Shown: in pieces, positions 1,649 through 13,626 of the stretch
Layout: every line of letters starts with the position of its first letter
How positions within the stretch are numbered: position 1 is the first letter of the stretch
From: Synechococcales cyanobacterium PMM_0003
Lineage (GTDB): Bacteria; Cyanobacteriota; Cyanobacteriia; Pseudanabaenales; Pseudanabaenaceae
Assembly: GCA_949128015.1 (NCBI GenBank)
Contig: CASBRC010000434.1
Span: 1-16,917, forward strand
DNA length: 16,917 nucleotides
Direction of reading: 5' to 3'
Position numbers and translations under genes: made by a program
Notes under the pieces: generated by a model
Told to the model about the DNA's origin: nothing
Seen by the model: the letters and a program-made list of their open reading frames with translations, nothing else
Databases searched by the model: none

Positions 1649-1699
1649 AAAACCCAAAAGAAGAAAGAACGCAAAGCGTCCTCTCTTCTTTTGAGTTTT
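1649..1699. repeat. 51-base palindrome, 24-3-24
   Basis: The arms 1649-1672 and 1676-1699 pair over 24 positions with three mismatches around an AAA loop; the tip is ACGC-AAA-GCGT and the outer ends are AAAACCCAAAAG / CTTTTGAGTTTT. It lies between the divergent P-type ATPase and thiS, so it sits in a promoter region and not behind a gene. Pairing was checked base by base by eye. Confidence 0.85.
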
Positions 1700-1742
1700 A
1701 GTCGCGGCAAACTCTAAAATCGTTATAGAAACTTAATCAAAA

Positions 1743-1766
1743 GCTGAATTTATGGCTGAATTTATG
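1743..1766 (+). repeat. 12-base tandem duplication spanning the thiS start codon
   Basis: GCTGAATTTATG occurs twice without a gap (1743-1754, 1755-1766). Each copy ends in an in-frame ATG, so thiS has two candidate starts four codons apart. Confidence 0.9.
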
Positions 1767-1967
1767 ATTGCATTGCAAGTAAATGGTGATAATCGCACAT
1801 GTGAGCCAAATCTTACGATGATCGAATTACTGAAATATTTAGGGCTAAATCCTCGCCTCGTAGCCGTGGAATATAACGGCGAGATTTTGCATCGTCAGTT
1901 ATGGGAAGACACAACTATTCAAAATTGCGATCGCCTAGAAATCGTCACCATCGTCGGTGGCGGTTAA
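1752..1967 (+). CDS. thiS: ThiS sulfur carrier protein (thiamine biosynthesis)
   Basis: ThiS is the small ubiquitin-fold protein whose C-terminal glycine is adenylated, converted to a thiocarboxylate, and used by thiazole synthase ThiG as sulfur donor for the thiamine thiazole ring. The 71-residue product has the expected beta-grasp pattern, including LTMIELLKYLGL, VAVEYNGEI and the terminal IVTIVGGG. It ends in the required Gly-Gly right before the stop. Family members usually begin at MIxLxVNG, matching the second ATG at 1764 (67 residues); the first ATG at 1752 comes from a 12-base duplication and adds MAEF. No Shine-Dalgarno distinguishes them. No other thiamine gene is nearby, and I saw no TPP riboswitch-like sequence upstream. 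A MoaD-type protein is the alternative, but the length and the spacing of the motif favour ThiS. Confidence 0.9.
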   Translation: MAEFMIALQVNGDNRTCEPNLTMIELLKYLGLNPRLVAVEYNGEILHRQLWEDTTIQNCDRLEIVTIVGGG

Positions 1968-1975
1968 CGGTAGTG

Positions 1976-1989
1976 TCACAGATCTGTGA
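1976..1989. repeat. 14-base perfect palindrome after thiS
   Basis: TCACAGATCTGTGA begins nine bases after the thiS stop. It is perfectly self-complementary. The half-site order is opposite to a CRP site (TGTGA-N6-TCACA), so it is not called one. No T-run follows, so it is not a clear terminator. Confidence 0.6.
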
Positions 1990-2028
1990 AAATGGGAAAT
2001 ATAGCCATTGGCATATTCATCAATTGAC

Positions 2029-2049
2029 TTACAGCAAATTCCGATCAAA
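2029..2049. repeat. Copy of a dispersed repeat end (TTACAGC...GATCAAA)
   Basis: This 21-base segment matches the reverse complement of 4704-4724 at 20 of 21 positions (A/T difference at position 10). At 4704-4724 the sequence forms the right edge of a composite hairpin element, so this copy may be an isolated end of the same family. Confidence 0.65.
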
Positions 2050-2155
2050 ACCGCCAAAAGTACTCATCATCAAATCTATAAGCCATTTACTACCCTATTC
2101 CATATCTTTTATATATATCTGTTGATGAAATAGTAGATCTTCCTTCCATCCGTTT

Positions 2156-2275
2156 ATGGGCTATTGTAGCAACTTTTCTAAGCCCATCTCAATGTGGGAA
2201 TACTTTGCCCAAAACCTCAAGCCGCAGGGATATGTGATCGGTTACAGCAAAGAGGGTTTTGCATTTGCAAATTGA
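2156..2275 (+). CDS. Possible 39-residue small protein (unrecognised)
   Basis: An ATG at 2156 (alternative ATG at 2192) opens a short frame ending in TGA at 2273-2275. The predicted product has a plausible amino-acid mix, with MWEYFAQNL followed by KPQGYVIGYSKEGFAFAN at the C-terminus. I do not recognise the family. Its last seven codons form the left arm of the 2255-2318 inverted repeat, so the reading frame may be incidental to a structural repeat. There is no convincing ribosome-binding site. It could equally be the remnant of a larger gene. Confidence 0.22.
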   Translation: MGYCSNFSKPISMWEYFAQNLKPQGYVIGYSKEGFAFAN

Positions 2276-2318
2276 GATGGTCGTGGTTAGTGAGGAATTG
2301 CCGCGCAAATGCAAAACC
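2255..2318. repeat. 14-base inverted repeat with 36-base spacer
   Basis: GGTTTTGCATTTGC (2255-2268) is exactly complementary to GCAAATGCAAAACC (2305-2318). The 36-base spacer contains ATTGAGATGG, which pairs instead with CCATCTCAAT upstream at 2184-2193, so two mutually exclusive or interlocking folds are possible. It lies 56 bases before the start at 2375. No T-run follows the right arm. Confidence 0.7.
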
Positions 2319-2374
2319 TCTACTTCCCCACAAAAAAACAAATGATAAAATGAATGCAGTAAAAACTGAAATAT

Positions 2375-2980
2375 ATGTCAGACCAAATCACGATCGCCGA
2401 TATTTATAAATTATTCGAGCAAACCAACGCCGCATTAGAGCGATCGCGTGTCGAGTTTGACCACAGCATCGCCCAAGCCAGAGCCGAAAACGATCTCCGT
2501 GCCGCCGAAAACTCCCTCTCTATGAAGCAGCTTGAACGCACCGTTGCTCAAACTAGCCGCGAAGTTGCAAATCTGACGACTCGTTGGGGTAGATTTGTCG
2601 AGGAGCTAGTACGTCCTGCGGTGATAAGAATGTTTCGCGATCGCGGTATCGACATCAATCAAACCAGTCTGCGCGTCAAATCAGAAGCTGTCAAAATCGA
2701 AATCGATATCTTAGGTGTAAATGGAGATGTAGTCGTGGCGGTGGAATGTAAATCGCGACTCTCGCAGGACGATGTGGATGAAATGTGCGATCGCTTACGG
2801 AAGTTTAAATCCGCTTTTCCGCAATATGCTAACTATCAGATTTATGGAGCGGTAGCAGGCATAGAAATAAACGAGAGCGTTGATGTTTATGCCTATCGTA
2901 AAGGGCTTTATGTAATTCGCACTTCAGGCGATAGCGTTGAAATTGCTAATGATGAGAAATTTAAGGCGATCGCTTGGTAA
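2375..2980 (+). CDS. DUF3782-like PD-(D/E)XK family protein with N-terminal coiled coil
   Basis: The 201-residue protein has two parts. Residues about 10-70 are charged and heptad-like, rich in Glu, Arg, Ala and Gln, and predicted coiled coil. Residues about 72-201 form a restriction-endonuclease-like fold: a WGRFVEELVRPAV helix, then a core with Asp111 in EIDILG and Glu124-Cys125-Lys126 in VAVECKS, the D...ExK triad of the PD-(D/E)XK superfamily. Such proteins are frequent and often multicopy in cyanobacteria, usually annotated DUF3782; no substrate is established that I can name. No methylase or other defence partner lies next to it. Start ATG at 2375 follows an A-rich stretch without a strong Shine-Dalgarno. 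cobD begins 34 bases downstream on the same strand, so the two may share a transcript without sharing a pathway. Confidence 0.8.
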   Translation: MSDQITIADIYKLFEQTNAALERSRVEFDHSIAQARAENDLRAAENSLSMKQLERTVAQTSREVANLTTRWGRFVEELVRPAVIRMFRDRGIDINQTSLRVKSEAVKIEIDILGVNGDVVVAVECKSRLSQDDVDEMCDRLRKFKSAFPQYANYQIYGAVAGIEINESVDVYAYRKGLYVIRTSGDSVEIANDEKFKAIAW

Positions 2981-3014
2981 AATCTCTTCATTCAGACTCT
3001 TACAATCAAAACTT

Positions 3015-4097
3015 ATGCTGTCAACCGATCACTTACGCCCAATGCATGGGGGGAATCGCCAATGGGCAGGGAGTCTTGCGGGTATTGCACCAGAAAGTAT
3101 CTTAGATTTTTCGGCGAGCATTAATCCTCTTGGCTCCCCTAAATCTGCGATCGCAGCAATTCAATCCCACTTGAGCGATCTCAATCATTACCCCGATCCC
3201 GAATACACATTACTCAGACAAGCTTTAGGAAAGTTTCATCAACTATCACCAGAATGGATTTTGGCGGGAAATGGTGTGGCGGAGTTACTAACTTGGGTAG
3301 GGCGAGATCTTTCACAACTATCAGCAACGGTACTATTCACGCCAGCTTTTACCGATTATTATCGCGCTCTGAAAGCCTTTGACTGTCAAGTAGAAGCTTA
3401 TCCACTTCTATCTAAAAATAAATCTTTTTGTTTAAACGCAGAACTTCCACGAATTGTTAATCCCCAAACCAAAGGAATATTAATAAATAATCCTCACAAT
3501 CCTACTGGTTATTTATTTTCTAGAGATAGCCTTTTGCCTTATCTAGCCGAGTTTGCGCTGGTGGTGATTGATGAAGCGTTTATGGATTTTCTCTTGCCAG
3601 AACAGCAACAAAGTTTGATTGATTTAGTGCCGTTGCATCCTAATTTAGTGATTTTGCGATCGCTAACCAAATTTTATAGCTTACCTGGTCTGAGATTAGG
3701 ATATGCGATCGCCCATCCAGAGCGTTTACAGCGTTGGCAAGCATGGCGCGATCCTTGGTGTGTCAATAGTTTAGCGGTAGCAGCAGGAATCGCAGTTTTA
3801 GAAGATGTGGAGTTTCAACAAAAAACATGGGCTTGGTTAAAGATTGCCAAATCTCAACTATTTACAGGTTTATCGCAAATATCGGGTTTAAAGCCCTTAC
3901 CAAATGCTGCTAATTATCTATTAGTCCAAACAGAAATTGCAGGTTCTCTTTTACAAAAGCAATTATTACAAAACGACAAAATTCTTATTCGTGATTGTCT
4001 AAGTTTTCCTGAATTAGGCGATCGCTATTTTCGCGTCGCCGTGCGACTAGAAAATGAAAATCAAAGATTAATAGAATCTCTATCAAAACTAATGTAG
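3015..4097 (+). CDS. cobD: CobD, L-threonine-O-3-phosphate decarboxylase
   Basis: PLP enzyme that decarboxylates threonine phosphate to (R)-1-amino-2-propanol phosphate, the linker of the cobalamin nucleotide loop. The frame is open from 2937, but the family begins just before the MHGGN motif, so I chose the ATG at 3015 (360 residues, near the usual ~364) with no overlap of the upstream gene. Evidence: MHGGN close to the N-terminus, ILDFSASINPLG, NNPHNPTG (Asn162), VVIDEAFMDF (Asp186), and SLTKFYSLPGLRLGYA with the Schiff-base Lys219; Arg340 in YFRVAVR is the expected carboxylate ligand. HisC is the nearest alternative, but MHGGN and DFSASINPLG indicate CobD. The stop codon lies inside a 36-base perfect palindrome, with a terminator-like hairpin and T-run following. 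The CbiG-CobJ gene of the same pathway lies convergent, 700 bases away. Confidence 0.9.
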   Translation: MLSTDHLRPMHGGNRQWAGSLAGIAPESILDFSASINPLGSPKSAIAAIQSHLSDLNHYPDPEYTLLRQALGKFHQLSPEWILAGNGVAELLTWVGRDLSQLSATVLFTPAFTDYYRALKAFDCQVEAYPLLSKNKSFCLNAELPRIVNPQTKGILINNPHNPTGYLFSRDSLLPYLAEFALVVIDEAFMDFLLPEQQQSLIDLVPLHPNLVILRSLTKFYSLPGLRLGYAIAHPERLQRWQAWRDPWCVNSLAVAAGIAVLEDVEFQQKTWAWLKIAKSQLFTGLSQISGLKPLPNAANYLLVQTEIAGSLLQKQLLQNDKILIRDCLSFPELGDRYFRVAVRLENENQRLIESLSKLM

Positions 4098-4125
4098 TGG
4101 CAATTCATGAATTGCCACTACATTA
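4090..4125. repeat. 36-base perfect palindrome overlapping the cobD stop
   Basis: Left half 4090-4107 is exactly complementary to right half 4108-4125, with no loop; the centre is AATTCATGAATT. The last sense codons and the TAG of cobD (4095-4097) are part of the left half. Palindromes of the type GTAGNGGCAATTC/GAATTGCCNCTAC are a known repetitive style in cyanobacteria, from general familiarity. Confidence 0.92.
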
Positions 4126-4130
4126 AAACT

Positions 4131-4193
4131 TAAAGCCCAAAAAGCTGTAGCGCACGTTGCGCGTGCGCTACAGCTTTCTGGGCTTTATTTTTT
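4131..4193 (+). terminator. Rho-independent terminator-like hairpin after cobD
   Basis: Arms 4131-4155 and 4163-4187 pair over 25 positions with one mismatch (A4140/C4178), loop GTTGCGC. A run of six T (4188-4193) follows on the plus strand, the classic form for terminating cobD. The arm carries AAAAAGCTGTAGCGCAC, shared with the hairpins near 4750 and 6260. On the minus strand it also ends the toxin remnant 4199-4294. Confidence 0.85.
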
Positions 4194-4198
4194 ATTGC

Positions 4199-4294
4199 CT
4201 ATTTACTTAACAATCTTTCATTTGCTTTTTCTTGAATCTGAACTGGCAAATCATCGTATAATTTGCGAAATGAGGCTAAAACAACAGATTTCAA
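4199..4294 (-). pseudogene. Truncated RelE/ParE-like toxin remnant
   Basis: Downstream of the small antitoxin gene, the minus strand encodes 31 residues, with VVLASFRKLYDDLPVQIQ central, then ends in TAG at 4199-4201. The pattern S/T-x-x-F-x-x-x-Y-x-x-L-P-x-x-I-Q matches the N-terminal helix of the RelE-like toxins that normally follow this kind of antitoxin in cyanobacteria, usually about 85-95 residues. The core beta-sheet and catalytic part are absent. The frame would start at TTG (4292-4294), overlapping the antitoxin stop by three bases, as in an intact operon. A palindrome begins directly after the premature stop, at the point of truncation. The match to the toxin family is from memory and not from a search. 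Confidence 0.55.
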
Positions 4295-4509
4295 AGCTTT
4301 CCTAGAAATAGATCTTGAGTTTTGCCAGCACGATACTCTGACATTGCCTCGCCAGCTAATTTTGCCAACATATCTTGAGAACGCTCAAATGAAATGTCCC
4401 ATTTGATTTCATCCTCAAGCTCTTCTAAGATGATCATCGCAATCGCATCTTGTCGATCGCCCGATAAATCTCTTAGTTTCGTAATTGTCCGTTCAAGTAA
4501 CTCAGTCAT
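4291..4509 (-). CDS. Small antitoxin-like protein, toxin partner truncated
   Basis: 72 residues, beginning MTELLERTITKLRDL and containing a QDAIAMIILEELEDE helix, a WDISFERSQDMLAKLA middle and an AMSEYRAGKTQDL tail. I recognise this as a cyanobacterial type II antitoxin pattern (often annotated as hypothetical or as the partner of a RelE/ParE toxin), in which the N-terminal helices dimerise and the acidic C-terminal tail wraps the toxin. The tail is intact although the toxin frame immediately downstream (4199-4294) is only 31 residues long. A solitary antitoxin could persist as a neutral leftover, or protect against a related toxin elsewhere in the genome. Start ATG at 4507-4509; no strong ribosome-binding site is visible. 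The assignment rests on sequence pattern only. Confidence 0.65.
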   Translation of the reverse strand: MTELLERTITKLRDLSGDRQDAIAMIILEELEDEIKWDISFERSQDMLAKLAGEAMSEYRAGKTQDLFLGKL

Positions 4510-4617
4510 GACGGCTGTAATCCTTAATAGAATTGATGCTTAATCAGTTTAGCTTTTTTAGTGTAGTGCTTTTAAAAGTCTGATTTCTTGTTAGAGCGGT
4601 CAATATATAAATATTTC

Positions 4618-4724
4618 TTACAGCGCTTTGCGCTCAAACCATAACCAGTAAAAATTTTAAAAGGGTTGCGAAGCAACCCTTTTAAAATTTTTACTGTGGT
4701 TCGTTTGATCGGAAATTGCTGTAA
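4618..4724. repeat. Composite hairpin element, copy A
   Basis: The element starts with TTACAGCGCTTTGCGCT (4618-4634), whose AGCGC-TTT-GCGCT part is itself a small hairpin. A 51-base palindrome follows (4646-4669 / 4673-4696; 24 perfect pairs, GAA loop), flanked by AACC and GGTT that can also pair. It ends with GCTGTAA at 4718-4724, the inverse of the opening TTACAGC. The same 17-base leader and layout recur at 7941-8028. A MITE-like or REP-like element is possible; no target-site duplication was identified. Confidence 0.75.
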
Positions 4725-4809
4725 ATATGACTAATAAAAACTTAAAAGCCAAAAAGCTGTAGCGCGTGCGCTACAGCTTTTTGACTTTTGGTTTTTATTA
4801 GTCATATTT
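4723..4809. terminator. Long hairpin that includes the 3' end of cbiG-cobJ
   Basis: Inner stem 4744-4764 / 4769-4789 (AAAAAGCTGTAGCGC type, one mismatch) extends, after a small bulge, into a further 19 perfect pairs: AAATATGACTAATAAAAAC at 4723-4741 against its exact complement at 4791-4809. The right part is the end of the cbiG-cobJ coding sequence (stop at 4798-4800), so the left part is an inverted copy of that gene end. It is placed to terminate the minus-strand transcript. Confidence 0.8.
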
Positions 4810-6213
4810 GCGGGGAGTATACACTCGCAAGCGATCGCACCATTGCAAACTCTTAGTTTTGCTAGAACCAATGATAATCACCGTTTGCATATCGGCAAGT
4901 TCAGGAACTAACTCTGCAAGCGTAATCACCCGCACATTTTCGCCCTTGCGCCCCATCTTGTGACCTAAAATCACGGGTGTATCAGGCGATCGCCATTTTA
5001 ATAAAATCTCTTTGGCAGCAGTAAGTTGCCATTTTCGCTGTGTGGAAATCGGGTTGTAAATTGCGATCGCAAAATCAGCTTCAGCGACTGCGGCTAATCT
5101 TTGTTCGATGATTTCCCACGGTTTGAGAATGTCTGATAGTGAAATCACACAAAAATCATGCCCAATGGGAGCGCCGATCGCCGCCGCCGCCGCTTGAACT
5201 GCCGATATGCCAGGAGCAACATGGATATCGATCTGGCTCCATCTGGGATCAGGCTCATGATCGAGAACTTCAAAGACAGCAGAAGCCATCCCATAGATCC
5301 CTGCATCACCTGATGAAACGATCACTACCGATTTGCCGACCGTTGCCAAGTCAAGAGCAAGACGAGCGCGATCTAGTTCGACACGATTATCTGAGGCGTG
5401 GATCGTCTTCCCTTTCGTAAATTCTTTGACTAAGTTCACATAGGTTTTATAGCCGACGAAATCTGTAGCATCTTCGAGAATAGCTTTGACTTCGGGAGAC
5501 ATCCATTTGGCGGCTCCTGGTCCTGTCCCCACAATCGAAAGTTTGCCTGTAATGGTTGGAACTGGAATAGCTTCGACTTGGTATACCAGATATTTGGAAC
5601 TTAGTTTAGAATCGATTATTTCTAATTTTAATTCGCTAGAAATCACTTCTATGAGATGGCTTGCCTGATCGGCAAAGGGTAGATTACTTTCCATTAACCA
5701 ATCGGCATCACCGATAATTTGAACTGATGCGCCTGCTAATAAATCTGCTAAAAATGTCTTTGCTTGCTCGTCATCATTTAGTAATCGATAACCTTTGGGA
5801 GGCGCTAACAATGAGGTCTGAAATCGCAATTCGCCTGTAGTAGTGATGGCGGGTTGGACTTGAAGTTTCTTGGCGATCGCTCTGGCTAGTTCATTTGCGC
5901 CATTTAGTCCGCCGAGTAGAGGCACAACCGCACTACCATCTTCTGCGATCGCAATTACAGGCGGCTCAGCGCGTTTATCTGAGAGTAAGGGTGCTAGCGA
6001 TCTGATTAAAATTCCTGCGGCACAAATGCCAATAATCGGATGCCCTTGACTAAATAATTCGCTTGCGGTTTCACTAAACTTGTCATATTCGCGATCGGCT
6101 GTTTGTGTACGCGATGCTAATCCGTAAATAATTGCCTTAGGAATTACGGTTTGGATCTGTCTTGCGATCGCAATACTTTTCTCTCCTAAAACGATGATAA
6201 TAGTCGGTTTCAT
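4798..6213 (-). CDS. cobJ: CbiG (N-terminal and middle domains) - CobJ fusion, cobalamin biosynthesis
   Basis: Bifunctional-looking 471-residue enzyme of corrin-ring synthesis. Residues about 1-130 match the CbiG N-terminal domain (GICAAGILIRSLAPLLSDK, EDGSAVVPLLGGLNGAN), linked to opening of the C20 delta-lactone of cobalt-precorrin-5A; about 130-215 resemble the CbiG middle region. From about 223 to the end is a tetrapyrrole methylase of CobJ/CbiH type (precorrin-3B C17-methyltransferase, SAM-dependent ring contraction): GTGPG at 229-233, SSGDAGIYGMA at 300-310, then a conserved IYNP. No separate CbiG C-terminal (CobE-like) domain is seen. The frame reaches TTG at 6237, but ATG at 6213 starts the domain directly and is preferred. 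cobD lies convergent nearby. The gene end is part of a long hairpin. Confidence 0.9.
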   Translation of the reverse strand: MKPTIIIVLGEKSIAIARQIQTVIPKAIIYGLASRTQTADREYDKFSETASELFSQGHPIIGICAAGILIRSLAPLLSDKRAEPPVIAIAEDGSAVVPLLGGLNGANELARAIAKKLQVQPAITTTGELRFQTSLLAPPKGYRLLNDDEQAKTFLADLLAGASVQIIGDADWLMESNLPFADQASHLIEVISSELKLEIIDSKLSSKYLVYQVEAIPVPTITGKLSIVGTGPGAAKWMSPEVKAILEDATDFVGYKTYVNLVKEFTKGKTIHASDNRVELDRARLALDLATVGKSVVIVSSGDAGIYGMASAVFEVLDHEPDPRWSQIDIHVAPGISAVQAAAAAIGAPIGHDFCVISLSDILKPWEIIEQRLAAVAEADFAIAIYNPISTQRKWQLTAAKEILLKWRSPDTPVILGHKMGRKGENVRVITLAELVPELADMQTVIIIGSSKTKSLQWCDRLRVYTPRKYD

Positions 6214-6258
6214 TATTTGTTTTGGAAATAGTGGCAATTAATTATAGTTTAAAACCCA

Positions 6259-6297
6259 AAAAGCTGTGGCGCACGCGCAGCGTGCGCCACAGCTTTT
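6259..6297. repeat. 39-base palindrome, GCTGTGGCGC subfamily
   Basis: Arms 6259-6276 and 6280-6297 pair perfectly over 18 bases around a GCA loop. The arm AAAAGCTGTGGCGCACG matches the hairpins at 4131-4187 and 4744-4789 except that an A-T pair there is a G-C pair here, and the partner arm carries the matching change. It lies between the end of the half-transporter gene (6306) and the start of cbiG-cobJ (6213). Confidence 0.88.
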
Positions 6298-6305
6298 GAG
6301 ATTAA

Positions 6306-6581
6306 TTAGTTGTCATCATTCATAAGCAGACGCATCGCCATAATCGCAAACAACAACGCTGCGATCGCCTTGAGTAATTTTGTTGGTAAAAATATGGAGA
6401 TGCTGTCTCCCAGAAATACGCCAACTGCACTTGCTAGTAATAAGGCGGCTGCCGAGCCAATAAAAACAAATCTCGGAGCCGTCGAACTACCACTTAAGCT
6501 CAAGGTCGCTAGTTGGCTTTTGTCGCCCAACTCTGATAAAAAAATCGTGCCGAAGCTCAGAAATAATAATTGCCAGTCCAT
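6306..6581 (-). CDS. UPF0016 (GDT1/TMEM165/Mnx) family half-size membrane transporter
   Basis: 91-residue, three-helix membrane protein with the family signature ELGDKSQ at residues 17-23 in the first helix; other hydrophobic segments lie at about 36-57 and 66-86. UPF0016 proteins export Mn2+ (and in eukaryotes also exchange Ca2+/Mn2+ for protons); the acidic signature residues form the ion path. Full-length members carry two such signatures in six helices, so a single-signature protein must pair with another. The gene just upstream in the same operon (6654-7019) encodes the second half, suggesting a heterodimer like the hemi manganese exchangers described in Synechocystis. Location would be plasma or thylakoid membrane. 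It starts at ATG 6579-6581 and lies 72 bases from its partner, with a short palindrome between. Confidence 0.88.
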   Translation of the reverse strand: MDWQLLFLSFGTIFLSELGDKSQLATLSLSGSSTAPRFVFIGSAAALLLASAVGVFLGDSISIFLPTKLLKAIAALLFAIMAMRLLMNDDN

Positions 6582-6604
6582 ATTTAACTCATGGTGTAGG
6601 AATT

Positions 6605-6635
6605 AAGATAGACGGCGCAAAGCGCCGAATATCTT
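6605..6635. repeat. Short palindrome between the two half-transporter genes
   Basis: Arms 6605-6618 and 6622-6635 pair over 14 positions with two mismatches; tip GGCGC-AAA-GCGCC. It sits inside an apparent operon, so it is either a weak attenuator or processing site or simply another member of the palindrome family. Confidence 0.8.
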
Positions 6636-6653
6636 GTTAACATTAACGGTGAA

Positions 6654-7019
6654 TTAGGCGATCGCTTCCCATAGTAGGCTAATCGACAGAATCAGAAAAC
6701 TTAAGCCTGCTAAGGTGTTTAACAAGCTCGGTGAAAAAGTTTTGGCAAGCCATTTACCAGCGATTACGCCTAATAAGCTCGTTGAGACTAATGCGATCGC
6801 AGCTCCTGCAAACACAATCCAAGGCTGATGTGACTGTGCCGAAATTACTAAAATACTTAGCTGAGTTTTGTCCCCGATTTCGGCAAGAAATACAGTAATG
6901 AAAGTGGTGGTGACAATTTGCCAATGCTCAGTGTTTGGCTGTGCTTTGACAGGTGATGTTGGTTGCACTTGGGCTTGAGATGACTCTTGTGATTGAGATT
7001 TAGACTTTACAGACATCAT
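6654..7019 (-). CDS. UPF0016 family half-size membrane transporter, partner with N-terminal extension
   Basis: 121 residues. Residues 1-31 are a polar, Ser/Gln/Pro-rich, probably disordered cytoplasmic extension. Then come three hydrophobic segments (about 34-57, 65-86, 98-119), the first with the signature EIGDKTQ at 47-53. With the single-signature protein encoded immediately downstream (6306-6581) it would complete the two-signature, six-helix arrangement of a UPF0016 cation/proton exchanger, most likely for Mn2+ by analogy with cyanobacterial Mnx. The start is one of two adjacent ATG codons (7014-7019). No manganese-sensing yybP-ykoY aptamer was recognised in the 80 bases upstream, although long palindromes occupy 7099-7248. 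Substrate is inferred from family. Confidence 0.88.
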   Translation of the reverse strand: MMSVKSKSQSQESSQAQVQPTSPVKAQPNTEHWQIVTTTFITVFLAEIGDKTQLSILVISAQSHQPWIVFAGAAIALVSTSLLGVIAGKWLAKTFSPSLLNTLAGLSFLILSISLLWEAIA

Positions 7020-7098
7020 TTACGAGCGTTATTCAAACTTTTCATAATCATTTCATTTTAGCTTTGTGTTTGTCTTTAGGATCGCAAATGAAATAACT

Positions 7099-7197
7099 TA
7101 CTCCCTTCCCACCCAAGAATTAGCGTTGCGGCGCTTCGCGCCGCAACGCTAATTCTTGGGTTTTACTGTCTAAATCTGTCTCACGGGGAAGGGAGTA
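7099..7197. repeat. Nested palindrome: perfect 24-3-24 hairpin inside a 12-base inverted repeat
   Basis: The inner hairpin 7111-7134 / 7138-7161 has 24 perfect pairs and a TTC loop (tip GGCGC-TTC-GCGCC). Immediately outside on the left is TACTCCCTTCCC (7099-7110); its exact complement is at 7186-7197, separated from the inner right arm by 24 unpaired bases (7162-7185). With the insert removed this would be a continuous 36-pair stem. Confidence 0.88.
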
Positions 7198-7205
7198 TGT
7201 ATTGG

Positions 7206-7248
7206 AAAACCCAAATATGATTCGCCCGCCGAATCATATTTGGGTTTT
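7206..7248. repeat. 43-base palindrome, possible terminator of the 7267-7902 gene
   Basis: Arms 7206-7224 and 7230-7248 pair perfectly over 19 bases, loop CCCGC. The outer ends AAAACCC / GGGTTTT give a bidirectional terminator-like form in which the T-tract belongs to the arm. It lies 18 bases beyond the stop of the minus-strand gene at 7267. The tip does not follow the GC-NNN-GC pattern. Confidence 0.85.
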
Positions 7249-7266
7249 ATTTAATTTGCTGATCCC

Positions 7267-7902
7267 TTAGTTGGCAATAATTTGAGCTAAGCGGCGGAGA
7301 ATTTGTAACACTGTAGGAAGATCGTCATCGGGTGGAAAAATTGAAAACAGCGACGATGTGGCATATTTGGGCTGGTCATTGACTGCATTCAGTTTCAAAA
7401 ATCGATATTCACTACCGTTAGAAATTAACCCAAATGTAGTTTGACTTGGGTTAGGACTAGCAAGCATATAAGCAAGCGCTTGAGGCAAGGCTTTATGGAG
7501 TGAAAAACTACTGCTTTTGGACTCGATCACCAATATCCATAGGCTTTTCTGGATAACTAAAATATCAATACGTCCTCGATAGATCGTCTCGCCATCGATC
7601 GCGGATATTGAGATCGATTCTTCATCAGCGATCGCATATTGGGAACTGTAAAACCCAGCCAGATCGAGTAATGGTGACAATATCGCCATTTTGATCATGT
7701 TTTCCGAAACCACAGATCGCCGACTAATATTTTTGTAAAATTCAGTGATTCGTTTGAGTGCGTCAAGATCATGTTTTGTAAGGTTCGGCAGAGCTTGTTG
7801 CCACTCTGTAAAGAAATCTAGATCATCACTACGCTGCAACTGAAAGTCTCGCTCTAGTCCTTCTAGACTTGTCTCTTCAGAAATCCTGAGTAGTTGAACC
7901 AT
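7267..7902 (-). CDS. PD-(D/E)XK protein resembling the HsdR N-terminal (type I restriction) domain
   Basis: 211 residues. The N-terminal ~60 residues are charged and helical. From about 62 the sequence follows the restriction-endonuclease-like fold: Glu67 in VSENMIKMAIL, then GRIDILVI with Asp113, and WILVIESKS with Glu127 and Lys129 (D...ExK), followed by HKALPQALAYMLAS, a helix typical of HsdR-N-like nucleases. No helicase, HsdM or HsdS is fused or adjacent, so it is a stand-alone protein of a kind common in cyanobacteria, not a working type I system. Nuclease activity is plausible because the triad is intact, but unproven. Start ATG at 7900-7902 has a good ribosome-binding site, AAAGGT, eight bases upstream (7911-7916), one of the few clear ones here. 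It is a single gene flanked by palindromes on both sides. Confidence 0.75.
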   Translation of the reverse strand: MVQLLRISEETSLEGLERDFQLQRSDDLDFFTEWQQALPNLTKHDLDALKRITEFYKNISRRSVVSENMIKMAILSPLLDLAGFYSSQYAIADEESISISAIDGETIYRGRIDILVIQKSLWILVIESKSSSFSLHKALPQALAYMLASPNPSQTTFGLISNGSEYRFLKLNAVNDQPKYATSSLFSIFPPDDDLPTVLQILRRLAQIIAN

Positions 7903-7910
7903 GATTAGTT

Positions 7911-7916
7911 ACCTTT
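7911..7916 (-). promoter_or_regulatory. Ribosome-binding site of the HsdR-N-like gene
   Basis: AAAGGT on the minus strand, eight bases before the ATG at 7902, supports that start. Most other genes in the window have no recognisable Shine-Dalgarno. Confidence 0.6.
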
Positions 7917-7940
7917 AAATGTTGATGATCAATGTTGATC

Positions 7941-8028
7941 GGTTACAGCGCTTTGCGCTGCCATAAAACCCAGAGTAATTTTTGAAAGTGCCGCAAAGCG
8001 GCACTTTCAAAAATTCCTCTGTAACCTT
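7941..8028. repeat. Composite hairpin element, copy B
   Basis: It opens with GGTTACAG (7941-7948) and closes with CTGTAACC (8021-8028), a terminal inverted repeat. Positions 7943-7959 equal the leader of copy A at 4618-4634 (TTACAGCGCTTTGCGCT, 17 of 17). The main hairpin 7971-7994 / 7998-8021 has 24 pairs with one mismatch and an AAA loop: 51 bases, as in copy A. The left flank CCATAAAACCCAGAGTAA aligns with CCATAACCAGTAA in copy A, but the inner arms differ. Confidence 0.8.
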
Positions 8029-8074
8029 TAAAGCCTCAATAGGCTGTATCTCGATTTATTAATAGATGTTCTCC

Positions 8075-9439
8075 TTATTTCACAATTTCGTTGCGATCGC
8101 TATCTCGCCAAGGTGTTTCTGCAAAACTAGCGATCGGTAACTTGGGCGAACCCCATTTGGCAACTAAAGTTTGTAAAACGCGATCTTGCGATCGATGAAA
8201 AGCATCAATATCACCATCACCGCGATTGACGATCGCAAACCAGATTACGCCATGCTGTTGCGTCTGGACGATCCCTGCTAAGGCACTGACATCAGAAAGA
8301 GTCCCAGTTTTGACGATCGCCCCTTTCGGCATTTTGCGCCCCTCGATTGTGCCGCAGTTGCAATCACTAATCGGGAACAAATCGGCAAGGGTTAAGCCTT
8401 CGACTTGAGCGCGATTATGTACTGCCATCATAATTGCGACAGAGGCGCGAGGAGATATTTGATTGGCTTGCCCCAAACCTGAACCATTAATTAATCTTAT
8501 TTCTGAAAGCGGAATATCTGTAGCATTAGCCGCGATCGCCGCTACCTGTTTGCTGCCGCCCAGTTGCGAAGCTAACATTTCTGCCATCTCATTATTGCTG
8601 AAGGTATTCATGCGCTTCAGGATTTGCCAAAGCGGTAATGACGCATGACGGATTAATACTTTGCTAGGAGAAATATTTGCTGAGGCAAGGTTTGGCACAA
8701 TCTGCACATTGCCGATAATCGCTAGTTGCGGTTTAGGTGTTCCCGCAGGCATGGCAGCGTACTGCTCGGCAACTTCACCGCGCCATCGGCTGCTATCAAA
8801 GGCTAAGCGCAGAAAATTAGCAGCTTCCTGTGGATTAGACTCAAAGTTCATCGCGAATCTACCTGTAATGATGAGATTGCCTTGAACACGCTTAATTCCT
8901 AGCTGATTTAGTTTATTGCCAAGGGCGATCGCCTCTTCCCACACAAAAAATGGATCACCACTGCCTTCAATGATCAGATTGCCTTTGAGGGTATCGCCTG
9001 TCAGATTGCCTGTGGTGCTGATATTGGTAACAAAGCGATAGTTTGATCCCCATGTTTGCAGGGCTGCTAGGGTGGTGACAGTTTTAGTAAGCGATGCAGA
9101 TGGCAATGGGCGACTTGATAAATTACCTGAGGCGATCTCGCCATCATGAGACTGAATCCAAACTCCTTGGTTAGGATCACTTAGCCCCGCTTGCTTGAGT
9201 TCGTTGAGCATAACTGCGATCGCTTGTTTGGCGACAGGATCGATCTGTGTATTGGCGCTCGCCTCTGATGCTAAAACTGGGCGGGTAGCATAGCTCATCA
9301 GCGTTCGCGGCACTGTGGCGACCTCACGACCATCAAGAGCTTGGGTCGAGACCGATAACAGCAAAGCGCCTACTAAACTCCACATTGTCATTAGGAAAAC
9401 CAAAACTAGAATATGTATGCCGATCGTATCAGCACACAT
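8075..9439 (-). CDS. dacB: D-alanyl-D-alanine carboxypeptidase, PBP4/DacB-like (peptidase S13)
   Basis: Penicillin-binding serine peptidase acting on peptidoglycan stem peptides outside the plasma membrane. 454 residues. An uncharged hydrophobic segment at about 7-31 is the likely signal or anchor. The three active-site motifs are in order: SxxK as Ser116-Leu-Thr-Lys119 in PSASLTKT, SxN as Ser281-Asn-Asn283 in FSNNEMAEML, and KTG as Lys377-Thr-Gly in VKTGTLSDVSALAG. The insert between SxxK and SxN (about 160 residues, with GNLIIEGSGDPFF) is the S13-type extra domain, separating it from DacA-type S11 enzymes. It is translated last in remA-gmk-dacB: its ATG (9437-9439) lies three bases after the gmk stop, suggesting coupled translation. 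The lack of positive charge before the hydrophobic stretch leaves the exact start uncertain (Met17 or Met19 are alternatives). Confidence 0.9.
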   Translation of the reverse strand: MCADTIGIHILVLVFLMTMWSLVGALLLSVSTQALDGREVATVPRTLMSYATRPVLASEASANTQIDPVAKQAIAVMLNELKQAGLSDPNQGVWIQSHDGEIASGNLSSRPLPSASLTKTVTTLAALQTWGSNYRFVTNISTTGNLTGDTLKGNLIIEGSGDPFFVWEEAIALGNKLNQLGIKRVQGNLIITGRFAMNFESNPQEAANFLRLAFDSSRWRGEVAEQYAAMPAGTPKPQLAIIGNVQIVPNLASANISPSKVLIRHASLPLWQILKRMNTFSNNEMAEMLASQLGGSKQVAAIAANATDIPLSEIRLINGSGLGQANQISPRASVAIMMAVHNRAQVEGLTLADLFPISDCNCGTIEGRKMPKGAIVKTGTLSDVSALAGIVQTQQHGVIWFAIVNRGDGDIDAFHRSQDRVLQTLVAKWGSPKLPIASFAETPWRDSDRNEIVK

Positions 9440-9442
9440 ATT

Positions 9443-10039
9443 CTAATCGTGAAACATGGCTTTTTCGAGTTGTTGCAGAGCAATTTCTAGATCGTCGTTG
9501 ACAATGGTGATGTCAAACTCGTTTGCGGCGGCGACTTCTAACTCAGCGTGATGCAACCGCTTGATAATTTGTTCATTACTATCGGTACTGCGATCGCGTA
9601 AACGACTTTCCAAGACTTCCATCGAAGGTGGGGCAATAAAAATTCGCTTAGCACTCGGGAAAGATGTCGCTACTTGTCGCGCCCCTTCGAGTTCGATTTC
9701 TAATAGGACAATCTGCCCAATTGCGATCGCTTGGTCAATGGCTTGACGCGGAGTCCCGTAAAGATTTCCTGCATATTCTGCCCATTCGAGAAATTCGCCC
9801 GCATCGCGCTTTTGTTCAAATTCAGCCCGATCCCAAAAGAAATATTCTCGACCATGTTCTTCGCCTGTACGTGGCGATCTGGTCGTTGCCGAGATCGAGA
9901 AGAGAATGCGATCGGGATAGCGTTCTAGTAATCTCTGTAATAGAGTGCCTTTACCGACCCCACTTGGACCCGTTACAACAATTAATTTGCCTTCACTCAA
10001 CGTTTCGTATGTTCCTATAAAATTGATATCAATTTGCAT
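9443..10039 (-). CDS. gmk: Guanylate kinase
   Basis: Converts GMP (and dGMP) to GDP with ATP, an essential cytoplasmic step of guanine nucleotide supply. 198 residues, the normal bacterial length. P-loop GPSGVGKG at about 24-31, then ISATTRSPRTGEEHGREYFF with the GMP-binding Arg and Tyr residues, FLEWAEYAGNLYGTP, VLLEIELEGARQV, FIAPPS and the lid arginines RLRDRSTDS. All are standard. The first ~16 residues precede the usual start of the fold, so a slightly later start cannot be excluded, but the ATG at 10037-10039 is the first available. It follows remA by 74 bases holding a 49-base palindrome, and precedes the carboxypeptidase by 3 bases. Confidence 0.97.
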   Translation of the reverse strand: MQIDINFIGTYETLSEGKLIVVTGPSGVGKGTLLQRLLERYPDRILFSISATTRSPRTGEEHGREYFFWDRAEFEQKRDAGEFLEWAEYAGNLYGTPRQAIDQAIAIGQIVLLEIELEGARQVATSFPSAKRIFIAPPSMEVLESRLRDRSTDSNEQIIKRLHHAELEVAAANEFDITIVNDDLEIALQQLEKAMFHD

Positions 10040-10051
10040 TCATTTAGCTTA

Positions 10052-10100
10052 AAAACACAAGTCAAAATCATTGCAAAGCAATGATTTTGACTTGTGTTTT
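10052..10100. repeat. 49-base perfect palindrome between remA and gmk
   Basis: Arms 10052-10074 and 10078-10100 pair perfectly over 23 bases; loop AAA, tip TTGC-AAA-GCAA. It lies inside the remA-gmk spacer, so if transcribed it would form a strong hairpin ending in TTTT, able to attenuate gmk relative to remA or protect an RNA end. Confidence 0.9.
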
Positions 10101-10113
10101 ATTTGTTTATTAT

Positions 10114-10374
10114 TTATTCTGTTGCTCCTTCTTTACTGATGACAAAACGATTGGCAACAGTTTCAGGCTGAATTGCAGATAGAACTACATGGCTAGAATC
10201 GGTGACAATTACGGCTCTAGTGCGCCTACCATAGGTGGCATCAACCAACTTGCCGTGCTCTCGAGCATCACTAATGATACGCTTGATTGGAGCAGATTCG
10301 GGGCTAACGATCGCCACAACTCGATTTGCTGAAACAATATTACCAAAGCCGATGTTGATGAGCTTAATATCCAT
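10114..10374 (-). CDS. remA: RemA-like regulatory protein (DUF370)
   Basis: 86 residues matching the DUF370/RemA family: [34 protein letters not shown], a [25 protein letters not shown] core and [15 protein letters not shown]. In Bacillus subtilis RemA is a DNA-binding activator of biofilm matrix genes, and there too the gene lies just upstream of gmk, so the remA-gmk order is conserved across phyla. In cyanobacteria the function is not established as far as I know; the basic [10 protein letters not shown] segment is the DNA-contact region in the family. Start ATG 10372-10374; first gene of the apparent remA-gmk-dacB transcription unit, with a 223-base upstream gap containing one 51-base palindrome near the trpB side. 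Confidence 0.9.
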
Positions 10375-10511
10375 AATTTTATCGACCTAAAATCGATTGA
10401 GAGGTGATGTAGCTTCATTTTTGCATGTATTATCGCATTATCCTGAAAAAACAACTATCTACGATATATTTTGTCATGTATAGCGGTCGCCACTTGTACC
10501 AAGACAAATCA

Positions 10512-10562
10512 AAACCCAAAAGAGAGAGGCGGCGCGGAGCGCCGCCTCTCTCTTTTGGGTTT
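10512..10562. repeat. 51-base perfect palindrome, 24-3-24, after trpB
   Basis: Arms 10512-10535 and 10539-10562 pair perfectly; loop GGA, tip GGCGC-GGA-GCGCC; ends AAACCCAAAAG / CTTTTGGGTTT. It lies 36 bases beyond the trpB stop on the minus strand and upstream of remA, so it could terminate trpB. The form is bidirectional. Confidence 0.92.
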
Positions 10563-10597
10563 ATGTCCTAACAAGACTGGCGATATTGCCTACTTAC

Positions 10598-11830
10598 TTA
10601 TAGATTGAGATATTGAATTACGGTATTTACATCCTTATCACCACGTCCAGAGCAGTTAATAATAATGCGCTGATCGGCAGTTAACTGAGGACACAAAGTT
10701 TCTAAATAGGCGATCGCATGGGATGTTTCCAACGCAGGGATAATTCCTTCCAAACGAGAAATTCGTTGGAATGCATCTAGAGCTTCTTGATCGGTGACAC
10801 TGTAATATTCTGCGCGTCCCAAATCCTTGAGATAGCTATGTTCTGGTCCGACACCTGGATAATCCAAACCAGCACTAATGGAATGCGCTTCTTGTATCTG
10901 CCCTTGTGAATCTTGTAATAGATAGCTCATCGCCCCATGTAATACACCGACACGTCCAAGGGTTAGAGTCGCGGCATGGAATTCTGTATTTGTACCTTTA
11001 CCTGCGGCTTCTACACCAATCAGGCGTACGCTCGGCTCTTCGACAAACTCATGGAATAAACCCATTGCATTTGAGCCACCACCGACACATGCCAACAAAA
11101 TATCTGGCAAGCCGCCCCATTTCTCTTGACTCTGACGACGGCTCTCTTTCCCAATCACAGCATGGAAATCACGCACAATCATCGGATAGGGATGGGGCCC
11201 TGCCACGGAGCCAAGAATGTAATGGGTATCGACTACATTAGTCACCCAATCGCGAATCGCCTCGGATGTCGCGTCCTTGAGAGTGCCAGTCCCCGACTCA
11301 ACGGGACGCACTTCTGCACCCATCAGTTTCATGCGGAATACGTTTAAGGACTGCCGCTCCATGTCTTGTACGCCCATGTAGATGACGCAATCTAAACCAA
11401 AGCGGGCGCAAACTGTCGCTGTTGCCACGCCATGCTGTCCTGCACCTGTTTCCGCAATCACGCGCTTTTTACCCATGCGGATCGCCAGCAGAACTTGAGC
11501 TAAAGCATTATTGATTTTATGAGCGCCAGTATGGTTAAGGTCTTCGCGCTTGAGATAAATCTGGGCTGTCCCATAGTGCTGTGTTAGTCTTTCGGCAAAG
11601 TATAGAGGGCTAGGTCTGCCTACATAGTCGCGCAAATAGCCGTTTAGTTCGTTGTTAAAATCAGGATCATTTTTGTAATGATAAAAAGAGGTTTCTAACT
11701 CAGCAAGTGCGCTCATGAGGGTTTCAGGGACATATTTGCCCCCGAATATGCCAAATCGTCCTAGTGCGTCGGGACGATTGACGGACGTGGGTTGTACGGT
11801 TGTTTTGGGTGCGATCGGCGTTGTGGTCAT
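10598..11830 (-). CDS. trpB: Tryptophan synthase beta chain
   Basis: Catalyses the last step of tryptophan synthesis, joining indole (channelled from TrpA) with serine. 410 residues, TrpB1 type. A ~20-residue non-conserved Thr/Pro-rich extension precedes [16 protein letters not shown]. The PLP Schiff-base lysine is Lys105 in [10 protein letters not shown], the catalytic Glu127 lies in AETGAGQHG, and the phosphate-binding loop GGGSNAMG is at 250-257; near the end is the conserved [10 protein letters not shown]. The gene is alone, without trpA, as is usual in cyanobacteria where trp genes are scattered. Start ATG 11828-11830; no Shine-Dalgarno is evident. Nothing is missing from the active site. 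Confidence 0.98.
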
Positions 11831-11957
11831 TGCGGTGGGTCTTGACTGATGAGTTGGCTAATATATTAGAAATTGCTTGGTGCGCTTGTGGCACTCTATT
11901 CAGGATAACAAAATAATTTGCGATCGCCTTTATAGCCTAACGTGTAAACACAAGATA

Positions 11958-12065
11958 CCAAGAACTAAAGTTCTTGGCTAAAAGCTAAAGTCAGTTGAAA
12001 CTGACTGAAGAGGATTAACCCGTTTCAACGGGTTTTAGCTTTTAGCCCGCAATTTATTGCAGGGC
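11958..12065. repeat. Multi-hairpin (cloverleaf-like) intergenic element
   Basis: Four nested or adjacent stems: CCAAGAAC / GTTCTTGG (11958-11977, loop TAAA); a 14-base outer stem GGCTAAAAGCTAAA / TTTAGCTTTTAGCC (11976-11989 / 12034-12047) enclosing GTCAGT-TGAA-ACTGAC (11990-12005) and CCCGTT-TC-AACGGG (12019-12032); and GCCCGCAA / TTGC-A-GGGC (12045-12065). Neighbouring stems share one or two bases. It fills most of the gap between the kinase stop and trpB. The style with GTTTCAACGGG is familiar from cyanobacterial interspersed repeats. Confidence 0.8.
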
Positions 12066-12096
12066 ATTTATGGTGGCTTGTGTGTACACGGTAGCT

Positions 12097-13548
12097 TTAT
12101 AGAAATGAATAGAGTAATTGAAAAATTAGGCGAAAGGCTGCCATGATCGCGATCGCACTAAAACCTGCAATCCCACAATATTGAGCAATATCGATCCAGT
12201 TTGGCAAACTCTGAAATAGTGTTTTTATAAAGATTTGACCGCCCCAGACTGCGCCGAAGCTCAACAGGTTAACGAATACAAATAGATCTTTATTATCAAG
12301 AACAGAACTGACTCTAAGAAGGATTATGCCTAATAACGCGATCGCAAAAGCGATTAAATTAGCAGGAGTGCCGATCGCAGCTATACCCACAGTTGTACTT
12401 ACTTGCCATAACAGCATCGCCTCGACACCCAACAAAAAAGCGGCAATAAACTGGGTGGGAATCGGGGCAGCTAGTAGCCAAGGTGTTTTTTGCGATTTTG
12501 GAGATTTAGACGGAGGTTTGGGGACTGAAGGAGCATTAATCGCATTGGGCGAAGCGATCGGTACAGGGACTTGAATACTCGTTTGGTGTTTTGGTTTTAC
12601 TGGTGCTGGTGCTGTGACCGCTATTTTAGAGCTAAGGGCTTGGATTACACTTGCAGCCGAATTGTAGCGATCGCTGGGTGCAGTCTCTAACATTTTTTGT
12701 AAAACTTTATTAAAACTAGGACTTAGCTTTACAAAGCGATCCCATTGCCATTTGTTGTAATTCACATCAAATAACTCGTCAGGATCTTTCCCCGTCAATA
12801 AAAAGAGACAAGTGACTGCAAAGGCATAGAGATCGGTGGCAGGAAAAACCGTATCGCCACGCATTTGCTCAGGTGCGCCATAGCCGGGAGTAAAAATCCC
12901 TGTAGATTTTTGACCTTGGACGGCTCCAGCCACTTGCTTAACTGCGCCAAAGTCCAATAAAAAGTATGTCTGATCGAGCTTGCGTACCATGATATTTGCA
13001 GGTTTGATATCACGATGGATCGATCCTTTTTCGTGGATAAACTGCAATACGGGTAATAGGCTTTGCATAATTTCTAAAACATCGGTTTCTGCGATCGCAC
13101 CATGCTGCTCGACAATTTGCTCAAGGGTAAAGCCATCGACAAATTCTTGTACCAAATAAAAAAATTCATCCTGTCCCGACTGCACCTCAAAATAGGCAAG
13201 GAGATCAGGAATTTGGGGATGTGTCCCCAAATCTTCTAAAACCGTAGCCTCACGCTCAAACATTTGTTTGGCGATCACCATCTGCGAACTGGTCAGCCCC
13301 ACTGGTTGCAATAGCTTAACCACGCAACGTTTCATTGCAGGCGTATAGCGATCGCGAGCCAAAAATGTCGCACCAAAGCCACCTTGGGCGATCGGACGTT
13401 CGACAATATAGCGCCCACCGAGCAGCAAAGGCATTCCGCAAGCCGTACAGAATTTTTGGGCAATCGTTTTAATCGTATTGCCGCTATCAAGATCAGCAAA
13501 AGAATTTAAAGGTTTTGTACAATTCGGGCGCGTGCAGTAAATATCCAC
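12097..13548 (-). CDS. Serine/threonine protein kinase with N-terminal zinc ribbon and C-terminal membrane helices
   Basis: 483 residues, in order: a four-cysteine ribbon (Cys5, Cys10, Cys34, Cys37), a Hanks-type kinase domain at about 46-310, a Pro/Ser/Lys-rich linker at 312-356, then four hydrophobic segments (about 362-383, 386-415, 422-444, 453-480). The kinase is complete: glycine loop AQGGFGATF (55-62), Lys78 in VVKLL, HRDIKPANI with Asp180, Asp199-Phe-Gly, and GYGAPEQ. It should be active and membrane-tethered with the catalytic part in the cytoplasm. This is a known cyanobacterial kinase layout; the substrate is unknown. The start is GTG (13546-13548): an in-frame TAA lies two codons upstream and no ATG would preserve the Cys pair. 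It is divergent from the helicase gene, with a perfect palindrome between them. Confidence 0.92.
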   Translation of the reverse strand: MDIYCTRPNCTKPLNSFADLDSGNTIKTIAQKFCTACGMPLLLGGRYIVERPIAQGGFGATFLARDRYTPAMKRCVVKLLQPVGLTSSQMVIAKQMFEREATVLEDLGTHPQIPDLLAYFEVQSGQDEFFYLVQEFVDGFTLEQIVEQHGAIAETDVLEIMQSLLPVLQFIHEKGSIHRDIKPANIMVRKLDQTYFLLDFGAVKQVAGAVQGQKSTGIFTPGYGAPEQMRGDTVFPATDLYAFAVTCLFLLTGKDPDELFDVNYNKWQWDRFVKLSPSFNKVLQKMLETAPSDRYNSAASVIQALSSKIAVTAPAPVKPKHQTSIQVPVPIASPNAINAPSVPKPPSKSPKSQKTPWLLAAPIPTQFIAAFLLGVEAMLLWQVSTTVGIAAIGTPANLIAFAIALLGIILLRVSSVLDNKDLFVFVNLLSFGAVWGGQIFIKTLFQSLPNWIDIAQYCGIAGFSAIAIMAAFRLIFQLLYSFL

Positions 13549-13575
13549 TAGTTAATCATTGAGTTTAGAGATTAA

Positions 13576-13626
13576 GTGATCTTTTGAGATGGTTGGCGCT
13601 TAGCGCCAACCATCTCAAAAGATCAC
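13576..13626. repeat. 51-base perfect palindrome, 24-3-24, in the kinase/helicase divergent promoter region
   Basis: Arms 13576-13599 and 13603-13626 pair perfectly; loop TTA, tip GGCGC-TTA-GCGCC. It lies between two genes transcribed away from each other (starts at 13548 and 13686), where a terminator would have no obvious purpose. Confidence 0.93.

Follow-up and report, generated by a model that had tools for sequence, protein, structure and literature searches.

Intergenic triloop hairpins of the Pseudanabaena group probably evolve in concert through replication template switching, and their 51-base length is to a good extent a family inheritance

Hairpins with long, nearly perfect arms and three-base loops recur between the genes of a 16,917-nt stretch of cyanobacterial DNA (the window), which is contig C434 of the 3.1-Mb draft genome of Synechococcales cyanobacterium PMM_0003 (G000, 77% complete). 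Comparison with genomes of the Pseudanabaena group, to which the window belongs, suggests that they belong to a large set of intergenic triloop hairpins, the arms of which probably undergo concerted evolution via template switching during replication, and that the length of 51 bases shared by six of them is to a good extent inherited within repeat families. The mutational mechanism of this reading is a known one; unusual is the size of the hairpin set on which it would act. With a cut-off of score ≥11, 12 hairpins were found in the 16.9-kb window (six of 51 nt, the others of 71, 49, 46, 43, 41 and 39 nt), while 60 dinucleotide shuffles of the window averaged 0.08 hairpins, and none of them gave more than 1. 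The hairpins in the window are therefore far beyond chance.

For the survey, the 19 best loci by trpB-like protein (94-97% identical to that of the window) were treated as one group; 16 of them stem from records named Pseudanabaena and three carry other names (L027, L028 and L035). Here and below, the labels trpB, gmk, remA and dacB are putative and come from reading translations. Samples of this group contained 3.6-5.3 hairpins per 10 kb at score ≥14, whereas the density at 61 trpB loci from other cyanobacteria was 0.37 per 10 kb. Altogether 734 hairpins were collected from 2.0 Mb of the group, 658 of odd length and 640 without a mismatch. The conserved part of these hairpins is their centre: GC-NNN-GC with a three-base loop was present in 471 of the 658 odd-length hairpins, GNA or TNC loops in 295, and the 5' base closing the loop was C in 89%.

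Most of the statistics on hairpin evolution come from the genome pair G002 and G021, which are 93.0% identical over 211 kb of aligned sequence. Orthologous places were found for 84 of 292 G002 hairpins and 83 of 209 G021 hairpins, and 59 orthologous hairpins could be aligned, of which an arm-identity filter (≥0.8) kept 51 and dropped 8. Among the 47 triloops in the filtered set, 14 were the same in both genomes, 13 were inverted, 8 were nearer to the same, 8 nearer to the inverted form and 4 tied. Some loops differ from their own inverse at the middle base only, so that such a flip could be a single substitution. When these were excluded, the remaining clear triloops comprised 10 same, 9 inverted, 5 nearer same, 7 nearer inverted and one tie, that is 16 inverted or nearer inverted against 15 same or nearer same. 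Loop orientation between the two genomes looks random. As a control, all aligned DNA was scanned: clear triloops on stems of 3-8 bp gave no flip in 1,636 cases, stems of at least 10 bp gave 7 flips, 7 same and 9 other, and clear triloop flips occurred only at stems of at least 11 bp. A paired arm change accompanied 5 of 10 clear exact flips and 3 of 11 clear unflipped loops. Flips from TTT to AAA and from TTC to GAA with identical arms were also noted between closely related named genomes, without a formal count. In a separate observation, the module AGCGC-TTT-GCGCT within elements of repeat family F1 (5-6 bp stem) reads AAA in L020 and L021 and TTT in L038, which contrasts with the absence of clear flips at 3-8-bp stems between G002 and G021.

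The arms of the same 51 hairpins have changed in step. Of 840 base pairs, 24 differed on both sides and were still paired, 22 differed on one side and 3 on both sides with loss of pairing; 16 further columns were pair gaps. For independent arms diverging at 6.5%, the intergenic divergence outside hairpins between G002 and G021 (1,597/24,504; 14.4% at third codon positions), one would expect about 102 changes on one side and 3.6 on both sides. The rate of changed pairs was 5.8% (49/840) after filtering and 9.6% (94/983) before, which indicates that the pace at which a pair evolves is about that of a single ordinary non-coding site. The paired changes comprised 14 transitions and 10 transversions, compared with 883 and 714 in intergenic DNA (Fisher p = 0.84). 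That 10 of 24 are transversions argues against a route through G-U pairs, which would give transitions only. Likewise, sense (mRNA)-strand mismatches in 226 hairpins comprised 54 G-T, 55 A-C and 99 others; given the lack of preference for G-T over A-C, the wobble pairs of RNA are not the driver of arm matching. Over all aligned hairpin sites the two genomes differed at 10.7%, and transversions outnumbered transitions (142:94); loop flips and replaced hairpins may contribute to this. Within family F1, an alignment of 18 sequences of 51 nt showed covariation at 19 of 24 pairs, with 98.6% of cells paired and a single G-U in 432 cells.

Several observations weigh against this reading. Two flips were found with other loops on short stems when loops of 4-7 nt were scanned (a 5-nt loop on a stem of 7 and a 6-nt loop on a stem of 3), and among all 59 pairs 4 of the 14 exact flips are explicable by one middle-base substitution each. 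Flips could also be polymorphic in culture or, less likely, reflect assembly errors. The match between the changed-pair rate and the intergenic 6.5% depends on the identity filter, and the neutral rate is only bracketed by the intergenic value and the 14.4% of third codon positions. With the 8 dropped pairs of identity <0.8 included, the paired changes were 25 transitions and 33 transversions, and one-sided changes were more transition-rich (17:5) than paired ones. Part of the deficit of one-sided changes is ascertainment, since the count needs a recognisable hairpin in both genomes and decayed ones escape it: among the 84 G002 sites, 7 had only a weak hairpin in the other genome, 7 had none and 17 were empty sites, and the corresponding numbers for the 83 G021 sites were 2, 10 and 9.

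Template switching would account for the combination of flipped loops and paired changes as follows. During replication the polymerase would switch at a hairpin to the other strand, use it as the template for one arm and the loop, and then return; this interstrand switch would be the physical step that removes mismatches between the arms and inverts the loop. The arms would then drift about as fast as ordinary non-coding DNA with their complementarity kept, and arms that drift in this way look perfect yet unrelated. According to PMC8604942, PMC7202029 and PMC8794818, template-switch mutation associated with quasipalindromes is known from E. coli, phage T4 and yeast. In PMC8604942, homogenised arms together with an inverted spacer are described as the signature of intermolecular switching, and in yeast the spacer was found inverted only where the arms exceeded 9 bp. 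The hairpins of the Pseudanabaena group agree in all three respects, namely homogenised arms, inversion of a short spacer and dependence on arm length, with clear flips here at stems of at least 11 bp. They differ in scale: the events described in those papers lie at scattered sites, whereas dozens of loops look randomised between the two species compared here. The same mechanism has been proposed for RNA genes in PMC8794818, where compensatory change plus loop inversion is given as extremely rare in rRNA; here the combination was found in half of the clear exact flips. The GC-GNA-GC centre corresponds to the extra-stable DNA mini-hairpin d(GCGNAGC) (PMC4686876), and this stability may promote template switching. 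The abundance of GC-NNN-GC centres and of GNA/TNC loops reported above fits such mini-hairpins, although many loops are AAA, TAA or AAT instead.

A further-reaching version, which we regard as possible but doubtful, holds that interstrand switching at GC-NNN-GC hairpins is unusually active in this group, that it randomises loops on a species time scale and that it keeps perfect palindromes genome-wide without selection on pairing. Such switching might be aided by an extra stability of the loops in DNA or by a second SbcCD pair. Two SbcD matches above cut-off were observed in 22 of 23 Pseudanabaena genomes (G000-G022) and in none of 15 genomes of other genera (G023-G037), and two long SbcC matches, below cut-off, are common in the genus; judged from these matches, a second SbcCD pair looks genus-specific. 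Loss of the palindrome nuclease SbcCD in Pseudanabaena was considered as well and is not supported. SbcD and XseA were each above cut-off in all 23 genus genomes and SbcC matches were long, although below the curated cut-off (best 439 of 478.5 bits). Because SbcD and SbcC homologues are present in the genus, the richness in hairpins is not explained by SbcCD loss.

Placement was analysed in 1.2 Mb with a quick purpose-made gene caller (rough calls) and spacers of 40-600 bp. Only 8 of 495 hairpin centres lay inside predicted genes, in agreement with the intergenic position given in the original prediction, an earlier reading of the window from its sequence. Hairpins were present at 5.96 per kb of convergent, 2.72 per kb of tandem and 1.46 per kb of divergent spacer, and at least one was present in 68 of the 99 convergent spacers, in 197 of the 482 tandem and in 45 of the 140 divergent ones. 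Of the 242 hairpins in tandem spacers, 137 lie with their proximal edge <30 nt past the upstream stop or overlap it. On the 5' side the outer arms are rich in A, and the part rich in GC adjoins the loop; at positions 1-5 of the 3' flank, T ranged from 0.32 to 0.44 and A from 0.28 to 0.34. Terminator-like sites in the window numbered 37, compared with 16.6 in shuffles. The gmk-remA spacer carried a hairpin (score ≥8) in 12 of 12 genomes including the window (11 of 11 relatives), mostly with different arms, and the dacB-gmk spacer in 4 of 8 genomes. The hairpins at gene ends thus resemble bidirectional intrinsic terminators, with a GC-rich stem beside a tight loop, an outer stem that is A-rich at the 5' and T-rich at the 3' side, and a location past stop codons and in convergent spacers; a role as terminators may be suspected from these features. 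They differ from such terminators in that the stems are longer and nearly perfect (640 of 734 mismatch-free), the T-tract lies mostly within the stem, the loops have three bases and divergent spacers carry hairpins too, the last of which departs from terminator-like placement.

This likeness bears on one alternative, namely that selection on an RNA hairpin, acting as terminator or as protector of mRNA 3' ends, keeps the pairing via ordinary compensatory mutations. The placement, the composition of the arms and the excess of terminator-like sites speak for it, but the sense strand shows no bias of G-T over A-C, 10 of 24 paired changes are transversions, changed pairs are no rarer than intergenic substitution suggests, and the inversion of loops is not predicted by it. 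As a cause of pairing, RNA selection is already weakened by these findings and we regard it as unlikely. Another way to change both arms in step would be the replacement of whole orthologous hairpins by ectopic gene conversion or re-insertion from family copies. Many hairpins do belong to high-copy families (108 matches to ACCCAAAA...TTTTGGGT per strand in G000), some orthologous sites carry quite different hairpins, and the 8 dropped pairs of low identity may be such cases. However, the same inversions and paired changes were seen in 33 hairpins that are single-copy by an identity criterion of ≥0.8, judged on samples of 0.8 and 0.6 Mb: their loops were flipped in 10, same in 10, nearer flipped in 5 and nearer same in 4 cases, and their 534 pairs contained 12 paired and 15 one-sided changes. 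An earlier criterion (16 nt, 2 mismatches) was too permissive and left 10 unique hairpins (flipped 2, same 4, nearer flipped 3). Whole replacement is accordingly very improbable as the general explanation.

The window contains the following hairpins and elements, none of which has an assigned strand (MITE, miniature inverted-repeat transposable element).

1649..1699, unstranded: 51-nt hairpin (24-3-24), loop AAA/TTT, three mismatches
4124..4194, unstranded: 71-nt hairpin of the GTAGCGCACGC (F2-like) repeat family
4619..4723, unstranded: 105-bp MITE-like element, family F1 (TACAGCGCTTTGCGCT...GCTGTA), containing the 4646-4696 hairpin
4646..4696, unstranded: 51-nt perfect hairpin, family F1, loop GAA/TTC
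4744..4789, unstranded: 46-nt hairpin of the GTAGCGC (F2-like) family
6259..6297, unstranded: 39-nt perfect hairpin of the GTGGCGCACGC (F2) family, loop GCA/TGC
7111..7161, unstranded: 51-nt perfect hairpin, loop TTC/GAA, within a dispersed element of about 105 bp
7206..7248, unstranded: 43-nt hairpin, outer arm AAAACCCAAA
7944..8048, unstranded: 105-bp MITE-like element, family F1, containing the 7971-8021 hairpin
7971..8021, unstranded: 51-nt hairpin, family F1, loop AAA/TTT, one mismatch
10052..10100, unstranded: 49-nt perfect hairpin, remA-like/gmk-like intergenic spacer
10479..10583, unstranded: dispersed element of about 105 bp, family F4, surrounding the 10512 hairpin
10512..10562, unstranded: 51-nt perfect hairpin, loop GGA/TCC, downstream of the trpB-like frame
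13576..13626, unstranded: 51-nt perfect hairpin, loop TTA/TAA, in a divergent spacer
16081..16121, unstranded: 41-nt perfect hairpin, loop GAA/TTC, 19 nt past the stop of the frame 13686-16061

The six 51-base palindromes of the original prediction were all recovered, with four perfect (4646, 7111, 10512 and 13576), one mismatch at 7971 and three at 1649, and its seventh palindrome of 49 bases at 10052 is real. The finder called the hairpin at 13576 as 25-1-25, because the T and A at the two edges of the loop can pair as well; the 51 bases are the same. It does lie between divergent frames (12097-13548 on the minus and 13686-16061 on the plus strand), the promoters of which are putative. The view that the arms are mostly unrelated holds in part: the hairpins at 4646 and 7971 are members of one family that agree in their 105-bp layout and have arms that can be aligned, and those at 1649 and 10512 share the outer arm AAACCCAAAAGA. 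For the hairpins at 1649..1699, 13576..13626 and 16081..16121, no relative was found at E≤1e-4 in the sampled Pseudanabaena DNA. A search for Rfam families in the window gave 15 matches at E≤1, none at the gathering score and 11 to miRNA precursor models, which were taken as chance matches to long hairpins.

Hairpin lengths in the group ranged broadly from 28 to 125 nt and were bimodal: one mode was a wide hump around 37, the other a peak at 51 (70 of 734, compared with 22 at 49 and 38 at 53). The constant length noted in the window thus corresponds to a real peak within a broad distribution, and the peak is in good part family-driven. The refuting condition named in the original prediction, broad lengths without a peak at 51, therefore has a mixed outcome. 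Family labels (F1, F2, F3, F4 and F6) were assigned by short motifs, leaving 506 hairpins unclassified. The modal length was 51 in F1 (19/58) and F3 (13/26), 55 in F4 (16/47), and 43 in F6 (11/14) and F2 (15/62), and at least 39 of the 70 hairpins of 51 nt belonged to classified families, mainly F1 and F3. The unclassified hairpins showed a smaller excess at 51 (31, compared with 16 at 49 and 20 at 53), and some of them resemble unassigned family members. Six of 12 hairpins at 51 nt exceeds the fraction elsewhere (binomial p = 0.0003), in a window that was chosen because it is striking. Inheritance within F1 and F3 accounts for a good part of the length of 51, and some coincidence adds to it in the window.

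Several hairpins are parts of larger elements. In addition to gene-end hairpins of terminator-like type, a second kind resides within insertions of several MITE-like families of about 85-150 bp. The hairpins at 4646 and 7971 lie in the middle of 105-bp F1 units with the ends TACAGC...GCTGTA, and a relative of the 4619..4723 element has an empty site with a TA repeat. The element around the 7111 hairpin spans about 7096-7200 (~105 bp) with the inverted ends ACTTACTCCCTTCCC and GGGAAGGGAGTATGT. When G002 and G021 were compared, 28 hairpin-bearing stretches (49-217 nt) were present in one genome and absent in the other, indicating that many hairpins were gained or lost in one piece, as the original prediction had asked of orthologous gaps, and in part by insertion. 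Direct repeats at the junctions of the 28 stretches measured at least 5 nt in 9, 2-4 nt in 8 and 0-1 nt in 11 cases; presence or absence of MITE type with target duplication was therefore found for a subset only. No autonomous element with the ends of the seven MITE-like families (nine end patterns) was detected in the 2.1 Mb searched. The elements resemble bacterial MITEs and other small mobile repeats in their inverted ends, their presence or absence as insertions, their short target duplications in part and a size too short for a gene. They differ in that several families with different ends hold the same type of triloop hairpin, and in the lack of an autonomous partner in the DNA searched. 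Repeats in cyanobacteria were reportedly treated by Elhai and colleagues in 2008.

Three further observations concern such elements. A 217-nt insertion in G021 (block 20001) consists of a TATAGC-ended F4 element nested within a TACAGC-ended F1 element. In the dacB-gmk spacer of L027, a new hairpin has an outer arm that repeats the adjoining flank AAACCGATTTT in inverted form, possibly through arm extension by fold-back copying or through insertion beside a similar sequence. The window region 11957-12067 is a dispersed element, about 110 bp long, in which two hairpins lie side by side and the long inverted ends read GGCTAAAAGCTAAAG...CTTTTAGCC; at the top of its BLAST list stand five full-length matches of 116-120 nt at four loci (L020, L038 twice, L123 and L129).

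The original prediction had offered three processes that would measure about 24 bases. Of these, copying of arm from arm has good support from the loop flips, the paired changes and their intergenic spectrum, but such copying homogenises arms of any length and measures no 24. A system of the repetitive extragenic palindrome (REP) type, in which a RAYT/TnpA-REP HUH enzyme makes or moves the hairpins, would fit their high copy number, intergenic position and palindromic form, and the proposed gene search did return PF01797 matches in 19 of 22 same-genus genomes and, as one partial match, in G000. Yet in three genomes without a PF01797 match, G007, G017 and G021, the sampled stretches contain 7.1, 2.7 and 3.3 hairpins per 10 kb, so that RAYT is not needed. 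The GTAG/GTGG foot is depleted (52 of 1,468 hairpin ends, compared with 89 in control stretches), and target duplications of at least 5 nt accompany 9 of 28 insertions; single-strand HUH insertion is not expected to make target duplications. As a necessary cause the REP-type system is largely refuted, and we give it next to no weight as an explanation. REP/RAYT elements as outlined in PMC3733652 are likewise short, abundant intergenic palindromes, whereas the hairpins here lack the GTAG foot, have far longer stems and occur without a PF01797 protein. A ruler-like process or a length-specific binding protein that fixes 24-base arms could explain the peak at 51, the six of 12 in the window and the smaller excess among unclassified hairpins. 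Against it, lengths extend from 28 to 125 nt and 39 of the 70 hairpins at the peak fall into classified families; because the repeat families have modal lengths of their own (51, 55 and 43), no 24-base ruler is apparent, and such a process or protein is scarcely credible.

Among the matches listed from open-licence PMC literature, no title named Pseudanabaena hairpins or palindromes, and none did so in a search on concerted evolution of inverted repeats in cyanobacteria; a search of the same literature for Pseudanabaena with miniature inverted-repeat gave no match.

Taken together, ordinary inheritance within families explains a good part of the 51-base length. Covariation is usually read as strong evidence for a selected RNA structure. 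Family F1 covaries strongly, at 19 of its 24 pairs, yet the mutation spectrum and the loop flips point to copying of DNA, so that covariation alone could mislead RNA finders in genomes of this kind. If switching is indeed as active as in the further-reaching version above, the covariation seen here would have been made by mutation alone. Bacterial template switching could be measured on these hairpins as a natural system, replicated within a single genus, in which each triloop is a two-state marker of switch events.

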